Source: Thermococcus gammatolerans EJ3 (GTDB taxonomy: Archaea > Methanobacteriota_B > Thermococci > Thermococcales > Thermococcaceae). Taken from it: a stretch of DNA of 64,000 nt. The notes below the pieces were generated by a model. The model ran no database searches. It had not been told where the DNA came from and was given only the letters and a program-made list of their open reading frames with translations. The DNA lies in the NCBI RefSeq assembly GCF_000022365.1, contig NC_012804.1, positions 1,922,001 through 1,986,000 of the forward strand, written 5' to 3'. A program made the translations under genes and the position numbers. Positions 52,877-55,777 of this stretch are shown here, in pieces. The stretch's first letter is position 1. Each line of letters starts with the position of its first letter.

Positions 52877-53668
52877 ATGCTCGTCGGAATAGGCATGATG
52901 CCCCACGGGAACCCGGTTCTTGAGCCCCCAGACGAGGAAACCGAGAGGCTCGCGGAAGTCCTGAGGAGAATCGGTGAGGAGTTCAAAGATGCAGACTCCT
53001 ACGTCCTGATAAGCCCGCACAACGTCAGAATGAGCGACCACCTCGGCGTCGTCCTTGCTGAAAACCTCGTCTCGTGGCTCGGCTTCGAGGGAAAGGAACT
53101 GCCAGGGGAGTGGAAGACCGACAGAGAGCTGGCCGAGGAAATTTACGAGGCCGAGAAAAATGCGGGAATGCCCGTCGTTGACCTGAACTTTGCATCACTC
53201 CGCGGTGAGTACTCTCGCTGGCCGCTGAGCTGGGGTGAGCTGATCCCGCTCCAGTTCCTCGAAAGGAAACCGCTCGTCCTGATGACGCCGTCGAGGGGAG
53301 TTAGCAGGAAAACGCTCGTCCGCTTCGGCGAAATCCTCAGCGAAGTCCTTGAGCTGGAGGAGAAGAGGGTTGCGCTGATAATCAGCGCGGATCACGGGCA
53401 CGGTCATAGCGAAAACGGCCCCTACGGGAAGGTGAAGGAGAGTGAGGAGTACGACAGGCTGATAATGAAGCTCATCAACGAAGACCGCCTTGAGGAGCTT
53501 CTCAGCATCCCCGAGGACCTCGTTAGGAAGGCCCTCGTGGACAGCTACTGGCAGATGTTAATAATGCTCGGGGCGATGAGAAAAGCGGAGTTCGAGTTAA
53601 AGGCGAGTGCCTATGCCTGTCCGACATACTTCGGCATGGCAGGGGCGCTGTGGGTGAGAAAAAGCTAA
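52877..53668 (+). CDS. Class III extradiol dioxygenase/MEMO-like protein
   Basis: A 263-aa protein of the LigB/MEMO superfamily: GIGMMPHGNPVLEP, LISPHNVRMSDH, the metal-site-like ISADHGHGHSENGPYG and a C-terminal CPTYFGMAGALW. Bacterial relatives cleave catechols, while archaeal relatives include the AmmeMemoRadiSam group. His residues at metal positions are kept, but the substrate is not known. It overlaps the alaX remnant by a few bases at its 3' end. Confidence 0.8.
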   Translation: MLVGIGMMPHGNPVLEPPDEETERLAEVLRRIGEEFKDADSYVLISPHNVRMSDHLGVVLAENLVSWLGFEGKELPGEWKTDRELAEEIYEAEKNAGMPVVDLNFASLRGEYSRWPLSWGELIPLQFLERKPLVLMTPSRGVSRKTLVRFGEILSEVLELEEKRVALIISADHGHGHSENGPYGKVKESEEYDRLIMKLINEDRLEELLSIPEDLVRKALVDSYWQMLIMLGAMRKAEFELKASAYACPTYFGMAGALWVRKS

Positions 53669-53993
53669 ACGACTCCAAAACTAGTCTCCAAAAGCCCCCT
53701 GCTCCTCCTGAAGCGAACCTTTCCGATTTTTATCCCCCAATTCCGCCCGTCGTCCTCGTGTGCTCCTTATTGCACGCGTTGACGTTCCAGCCCTCGATGA
53801 CGACCACCTTGAGGGTTTTAACCTCCTCCGGAACGGGAAACAGGTCGTACATGTCCTCTCCGAAGTGCTTCTCCGCTTCTTCGCGCGGAAGCTCGTAAAC
53901 CTCAACTGGAGCGTTCTCCTGGACTTTCTCATTGGCGAGGCGCTCTATTTCCTCTACCTCCTCGGGCGTTGGCTTCCGATTGAACTTGACGGT
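53665..53993 (-). pseudogene. alaX remnant (tRNA-Ala editing), 5'-deleted and frameshifted
   Basis: The minus strand codes for the C-terminal two thirds of a small AlaX editing protein: [38 protein letters not shown] and the zinc-site region [19 protein letters not shown]. The N-terminal part with the HxxxH motif is missing: homology stops at about 53993, where the ybaK remnant begins. After TTGGIG the frame shifts at a G run; the next frame continues [20 protein letters not shown]. Two lesions indicate a dead gene. Confidence 0.82.
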
Positions 53994-54246
53994 CAGCCTT
54001 CCGAAGCTGGAAAAGAAATTCGGAAAGTGCAGGTTTGCAAAGCCAAAAGAGGTCAAAGAACTTACAGGCTACGAGGTCAGTGGCGTTTCTCCCGTCGGCG
54101 TGCCGCTCAGGACAATAATTGACCCAAGGGTTCTGGAGAACGAGCACGTCATCGGCGGGGGAGGGGCCGTTAACAAACTCATCAGGATAAGGCCCGAGAG
54201 AATCGTCGAGTACCAGCGGGCGGAGATAATGGACGTTAGAGAATAA
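53986..54246 (+). pseudogene. ybaK/proX remnant (tRNA editing), 5'-deleted
   Basis: The plus strand codes for the C-terminal half of a YbaK/ProX-type aminoacyl-tRNA deacylase: [39 protein letters not shown] and HVIGGGGAVNKLIRI. The first half of the domain is absent and no sensible start exists; the open frame upstream is alaX text read antisense. It abuts the alaX remnant head to head. Confidence 0.82.
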
Positions 54247-54430: not shown

Positions 54431-55777
54431 ATGGCCGAGAAGAAAAAGAAGAGGGTCCTGATTCTCGGAGCGGCCGGAAGGGACTTCCACAACTTCAACG
54501 TGTTCTTCAGGGACAACCCTGAATACGAGGTCGTTGCCTTCACCGCCACTCAGATTCCGGACATCGAGGGCAGGCTTTACCCGCCCGAGCTCGCCGGCGA
54601 GCTCTACCCGAACGGAATCCCGATATGGAGCGAGGATGACATGGAGAAGATAATCAAGGAGCACGACATTGATATAGTCGTCTTCGCCTACTCCGACGTC
54701 TCCCACGAGCACGTCATGCACCTCGCCAGCAGGGCCCACAGCGCTGGTGCCGACTTCTGGCTCCTTGGACCCAAGAGCACCATGCTCAAGTCCAGCAAGC
54801 CTGTCGTTGCGGTCACCGCCGTCAGAACCGGCTGTGGAAAGAGCCAGACCTCAAGAAAGGTCGCCCAGCTCCTCCAGGAGATGGGGTACAAGGTCGTTGC
54901 CATAAGGCACCCGATGCCCTACGGTGATTTGAGGAAGCAGGTCGTCCAGCGCTTCGCCACATTCGAGGACCTCGACAAGTACGAGTGCACCATCGAGGAG
55001 AGGGAAGAGTACGAGCCCTACATCGAGCGCGGTATGGTGGTTTACGCGGGCGTTGACTACGAGAAGATTCTCCGCGAGGCCGAGAAGGAAGCCGACATAA
55101 TCCTCTGGGACGGAGGAAACAACGACTTCCCGTTCTACGAGCCCGACCTCTGGATAGTTGTCACCGACCCGCACAGGCCCGGCCACGAGCTCAAGTACCA
55201 CCCCGGTGAGACCAACTTTAGAGCCGCTGACGTCATAATCATCAACAAGATCGACACCGCTAACAGAGACGACATCCAGAAGGTCCGCGAGAGCATCGAG
55301 AAGGTCAACCCGAACGCCACCGTCATCGAGGCCGCTTCACCTATATTCGTGGACAACCCCGAGCTCATCAAGGGCAAGCGCGTTCTCGTCGTCGAGGACG
55401 GTCCGACCCTCACCCACGGCGGCATGAAGTACGGAGCCGGGTACGTTGCAGCGAAGAAGTTTGGAGCGAAGGAAATCATCGACCCGAGGCCCTACGCCGT
55501 CGGCTCCATCGTCGAGACCTACAAGAAGTACCCGCACCTCGACGTCATCCTCCCTGCTATGGGCTACGGCAAGAAGCAGATTAAGGAGCTCGAGGAGACC
55601 ATCAACAGGGCCGATGCCGACGTCGTCATCATGGGCACCCCAGTTGACCTGCGCAGGTTCATGAACCTCAACAAGCCAGCCGTTCGCGTCCGCTACGAGC
55701 TCGAGGAAATCGGCCAGCCCAAGCTCAAGGACATCCTCGAGAACTGGGTCAAGAACTGCGAGAAGCTTAAGAAGTGA
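54431..55777 (+). CDS. Cyclic 2,3-diphosphoglycerate synthetase-family GTPase
   Basis: A 448-aa COG2403 protein with an N-terminal Rossmann-like domain (LILGAAGRDFHNFNV) and a SIMIBI-type NTPase core: VRTGCGKSQTSRK as P-loop, ILWDGGNNDFPF and INKIDTANRDD. The Methanothermus enzyme of this family makes cyclic 2,3-diphosphoglycerate, an osmolyte and thermoprotectant. Whether Thermococcus makes it is unclear, so another acyl-phosphate ligase role is possible. Codon usage is strongly biased, which suggests high expression. Confidence 0.85.
   Translation: MAEKKKKRVLILGAAGRDFHNFNVFFRDNPEYEVVAFTATQIPDIEGRLYPPELAGELYPNGIPIWSEDDMEKIIKEHDIDIVVFAYSDVSHEHVMHLASRAHSAGADFWLLGPKSTMLKSSKPVVAVTAVRTGCGKSQTSRKVAQLLQEMGYKVVAIRHPMPYGDLRKQVVQRFATFEDLDKYECTIEEREEYEPYIERGMVVYAGVDYEKILREAEKEADIILWDGGNNDFPFYEPDLWIVVTDPHRPGHELKYHPGETNFRAADVIIINKIDTANRDDIQKVRESIEKVNPNATVIEAASPIFVDNPELIKGKRVLVVEDGPTLTHGGMKYGAGYVAAKKFGAKEIIDPRPYAVGSIVETYKKYPHLDVILPAMGYGKKQIKELEETINRADADVVIMGTPVDLRRFMNLNKPAVRVRYELEEIGQPKLKDILENWVKNCEKLKK

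Follow-up and report, generated by a model that had tools for sequence, protein, structure and literature searches.

Loss of the 5' ends of two divergent aminoacyl-tRNA editing genes in Thermococcus gammatolerans, very probably through a single deletion

Two truncated frames, transcribed divergently, lie in Thermococcus gammatolerans between an intact LigB-like and an intact cPGS-like gene (Table 1) and correspond to parts of the aminoacyl-tRNA editing genes alaX and ybaK/ProX. This arrangement raises the question of whether one event disabled both genes, and of what it means for an organism to lose both. We analyzed the locus within the window, that is, the whole stretch of 64,000 nucleotides to which all coordinates refer. 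The locus upstream of cPGS was also extracted from 53 other Thermococcus genomes and both genes were mapped in each, giving 54 loci with that of the window included. The minus-strand remnant runs from the junction down to the original alaX stop (CTA, 53665-53667), and the plus-strand remnant starts at the junction and ends at the ybaK stop (54244-54246); both frames continue uninterrupted through the junction (104 aa on the plus and 108 aa on the minus strand).

Table 1. Features of the alaX-ybaK locus of T. gammatolerans, in window coordinates
Feature	Position	Strand	Remarks
LigB/MEMO-like protein gene (PF02900), intact left neighbour	52877..53668	+	Stop overlaps the alaX stop
alaX-S pseudogene remnant, codons 42-153 of the ancestral 153	53665..54003	-	From alignment with relatives
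Second alaX lesion, one-base deletion, frameshift	53734..53738	-	G5 run (C run on +) vs GGGGAG in relatives
Deletion junction, 13-mer GGTCAGCCTTCCG, surviving direct-repeat copy	53991..54003		About 376 bp missing here
ybaK/ProX-like pseudogene remnant, codons 62-145 of 145	53993..54246	+	From alignment and PF04073
Right neighbour, 448 aa, intact, own upstream region also intact	54431..55777	+	Product presumably cyclic 2,3-diphosphoglycerate synthetase-like (cPGS)

The initial annotation had proposed that one deletion removed the 5' halves of two head-to-head genes. Relatives with the intact divergent pair upstream of the cPGS-like gene do exist, at 10 of the 54 loci (G001, G007, G014, G018, G019, G021, G024, G029, G042 and G051), and the same order is found in G061, which belongs to another genus of the family, so the divergent arrangement probably predates the genus. 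When the window was aligned with seven intact relatives, a single gap was observed, with colinear sequence on either side. The missing length was 375-383 bp (376 bp relative to G001, G018, G021 and G024) and comprises codons 1-41 of the 153 of alaX, codons 1-61 of the 145 of ybaK and the intergenic region of about 60 bp with its conserved TTATTAA element. The single deletion, its coordinates and its content were thus confirmed, but "halves" overstates the loss, which amounts to 27% of the alaX codons and 42% of the ybaK codons, at the 5' end in both cases.

Both remnants could be assigned to their families, and neither retains what a functional member would need. The alaX remnant is orthologous to AlaX-S by identity (74-91% with intact orthologues from some 40 genomes) and by its position upstream of cPGS, and is classed as a pseudogene: the full-length domain of about 150 aa and the complete set of HxxxH and CxxxH motifs of a functional AlaX-S are lacking. 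The HxxxH and CxxxH residues have a zinc-site role in AlaX proteins; HTALH, the HxxxH half of the presumed site, was deleted and CNKEH, the CxxxH half, was kept. The ybaK remnant matches PF04073 with an E value of 1e-14, spans positions 43-120 of the 123 of the profile, occupies the position of the intact genes and is classed as a pseudogene of the INS superfamily. A complete tRNA_edit domain with the conserved lysine is absent, as the region of this residue (K41, which aligns with the YbaK lysine) lies in the deleted part.

The shared upstream region was lost as well. A TTATTAA sequence is located between the two breakpoint sites in nine of the ten intact pairs, G007 having CTATTAA, and it is retained upstream of alaX in seven of the eight ybaK-less genomes inspected; it was removed with the deletion, and nothing corresponds to it in the window remnant. 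Its position and conservation suggest a promoter element, so that the deletion took the start codon and the probable promoter from both genes at one stroke. In the approximately 60 bp between the divergent starts there is one TTATTAA (for instance in loci L086, L102 and L106), as if one core promoter worked in both directions. Taken together, these results make us highly confident that a single deletion took the 5' ends of both head-to-head genes along with their shared promoter region and left a pair of pseudogenes.

How the deletion arose is suggested by the sequence at its ends. The junction reads GGTCAGCCTTCCGAAGC, and the intact ybaK of the sister genome G050 has the identical GGTCAGCCTTCCGAAGC there (13/13). 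On the alaX side, the breakpoint reads GGCCAGCCTTCCG in G008 and G021 and GGTCAGCCTTCCA in G010 and G058, both of which match the 13-mer at 12 of 13 positions. The exact 13-mer was absent from the alaX side of every relative with alaX sequence there, the best match being 12/13; it was presumably exact in the direct ancestor. The sequences of G050 ybaK and of the alaX of the relatives therefore place both breakpoints in copies of one direct repeat of 12-13 bp, of which one is left at the junction, the pattern that defines a deletion between short direct repeats. In the G021 locus, 159,330 pairs of positions are separated by 200 bp or more and only 4 of them agree at 11 or more of 13 positions, so a chance landing of the breakpoints on such a pair is unlikely. 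To judge from the junction, slippage or annealing between short direct repeats probably caused the deletion, although replication slippage and post-break annealing would leave an identical scar. According to this model, the ancestor would have carried alaX-S on the minus and the ybaK/ProX-family gene on the plus strand, transcribed divergently from an intergenic region of about 60 bp with one TTATTAA. Each gene would have contained one copy of GGTCAGCCTTCCG, and slippage or annealing between the two would have removed about 376 bp, that is, the stretch between the repeats plus one repeat copy. In the same step, both genes would have been deprived of their start codon, their probable promoter and some of their active-site residues. 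A single base near the 3' end of alaX was lost either before or after this deletion.

That single-base loss bears on whether the two genes were lost at once, as had been claimed. The frameshift reported at the G run stands, the window having GGGGG, one base fewer than the GGGGAG of its relatives, and it leads to a premature TAA at 53730-53732. Hence, alaX might already have been dead when the deletion took ybaK, by then the only functional gene of the two. This stepwise loss, which we regard as possible but doubtful, is favored by the independent one-base deletion itself and by the fact that alaX is missing or broken through other lesions in the close relatives G050, G006 and G008. However, no lesion of G050 or G008 is common to the window, and the constraint on the alaX remnant is that of functional orthologues (dN/dS of 0.07 against the functional G012 gene, like functional pairs). 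Between the ybaK remnant and its G050 counterpart there are 5.5 synonymous and 4.5 non-synonymous differences, two of the latter type converting the otherwise conserved GGVPPVG motif into SGVSPVG. The low dN/dS of alaX and the few changes in ybaK indicate that the decay is recent and that both genes were probably functional not long ago. Simultaneous death of the two genes is likely, but it falls short of proof because alaX bears the second lesion, acquired before or after the deletion. We keep the single deletion as the preferred reading; the T. gammatolerans remnants form a clean, recent pseudogene pair, which is probably no longer expressed, and the whole looks like ordinary gene decay, given that some quarter of the related species compared have likewise lost the pair.

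The loss of both genes had been considered unusual. This expectation of an exceptional double loss can now be corrected: among the 54 Thermococcus loci, 10 have both genes, 26 only alaX, 4 only ybaK and 14, about a quarter and including the window, neither in functional form. The lesions differ: alaX is interrupted by a stop codon in G016 and lacks its 3' part in G044, a 5' loss occurs in G025, and absence is complete in G003, G011, G015, G017, G022, G046 and G057. Genome-wide searches of the genomes lacking functional copies found no replacement for either gene. No linked loss of alaX and ybaK was detected over the 54 genomes (Fisher p 0.75, kinship ignored), and the count of independent losses is rough, since the gene tree was that of cPGS alone. 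The window is thus one more case of loss, set apart by a single event striking both genes.

Several individual loci add to this picture. G050, the closest relative (96.5% identity to the window in cPGS), lacks most of alaX through a deletion different from that of the window; an alaX lesion common to both was considered and rejected, as none is shared. G050 (L056) and G008 (L063) have a one-base alaX deletion in common, yet the cPGS tree does not place them as sisters; this allele may have been exchanged between species, or the gene tree may be unreliable. The near relative G006 (L057) has no alaX, and its ybaK is frameshifted near codon 69, a double loss independent of that in the window. At other ybaK-less loci, L058, L060, L066 and L068 among them, ybaK is cleanly absent and alaX is kept with its upstream TTATTAA, which indicates other routes of ybaK loss in most species. 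Besides, several species have ORFs, named by eye, in the interval from the LigB-like gene to alaX: a PIN-like (toxin-antitoxin-like) pair in L027, L033, L037 and L039 and an ATPase-like one in L031, L036 and L040, so the site gains genes as well. One could imagine that selection drove the repeated independent erosion of the alaX-S/ybaK pair, for example because some niches permit or reward less stringent aminoacyl-tRNA editing, with short direct repeats making the site prone to deletion, but we consider this improbable.

Two further explanations are weaker still. Reads can err in short G runs such as the one with the frameshift, and direct repeats are able to collapse assemblies, but the genome is finished, from large-insert libraries with about tenfold coverage and a low error rate (less than 2.4e-5; PMC2718504). 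Moreover, reads are far longer than 13 bp, which makes a repeat-driven collapse over 376 unique bases implausible, and SGVSPVG in place of GGVPPVG fits a gene already out of use, so that a misassembly or sequencing error is very unlikely. Just as remote is a retained product, for instance a short protein of one domain or a pair of antisense transcripts: the frames stay open over the junction, which makes a translated fragment possible, and the ybaK remnant keeps its PF04073 match, but start codon, probable promoter element and active-site parts (the AlaX HxxxH; the lysine aligned with that of YbaK) are gone.

The consequences of the loss depend on the editing genes that are left. The initial annotation had warned that fidelity could suffer unless other copies existed, and the outcome differs between the two genes. 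AlaRS with its SAD editing domain (a 917-codon frame) is intact, as are an AlaX-M (213 aa) and an AlaX-L (405 aa), labels given by length and by NCBIfam matches that fall short of the curated cut-off. Both Ser- and Gly-tRNA(Ala) are reported substrates of AlaX-M and AlaX-L, whereas AlaX-S is reported to act on Ser-tRNA(Ala) alone (PMC11295145). With these three genes intact, editing of Ser/Gly-tRNA(Ala) is probably covered and the effect on alanine fidelity is, as far as gene content tells, probably buffered. In contrast, no other PF04073 or ybaK-like sequence was found in the whole T. gammatolerans genome, so the INS-type (ybaK/ProX) function is gone.

In the open-access literature searched, neither this locus nor a loss of AlaX in Thermococcales is described, and the genome paper of T. 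gammatolerans does not report frameshifts or pseudogenes in any notable number (PMC2718504). In this published model archaeon, the locus records a natural loss of two accessory tRNA-proofreading genes that is exact, recent and clearly delimited, and the genus-wide table shows that alaX-S and ybaK are both dispensable in Thermococcus. Whether hyperthermophiles need editing of the AlaX-S and ProX types can thereby be tested directly, by removing the genes from a laboratory Thermococcus.

Among known systems, the intact Thermococcus AlaX-S orthologue (153 aa) matches AlaX-S (AlaXp-S) of Pyrococcus horikoshii (PDB 1V4P, 1V7O, 1WNU and 1WXO) over its full length with an E value of 5e-76. AlaXp-S is reported to hydrolyse Ser-tRNA(Ala) without tRNA specificity (PMC11295145). 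Compared with it, the window copy is devoid of the first 41 codons and frameshifted at its 3' end. The intact ybaK-like orthologue matches PF04073 at 1.7e-27, APE2540 (1WDV) at 6e-22, TTHA1699 (2CX5, the ProXp-x representative) at 9e-18 and YbaK (1DBU) at 7e-5. It scored 59.2 bits against the YbaK equivalog TIGR00011, whose cut-off is 153.25, so it is not YbaK proper and the name "YbaK" is a label at the superfamily level. YbaK proper is a Cys-tRNA(Pro) deacylase, and ProXp-x deacylates Abu-tRNA and Ala-tRNA(Pro). The plus-strand gene is best called an INS-superfamily member with ProXp-x as its nearest characterised family and, compared with the free-standing editing domains of that superfamily, the window copy is without codons 1-61. 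As for the deletion itself, events between short direct repeats, by slippage or single-strand annealing, likewise leave one repeat and remove the intervening DNA, and we saw no difference between them and the scar described here.
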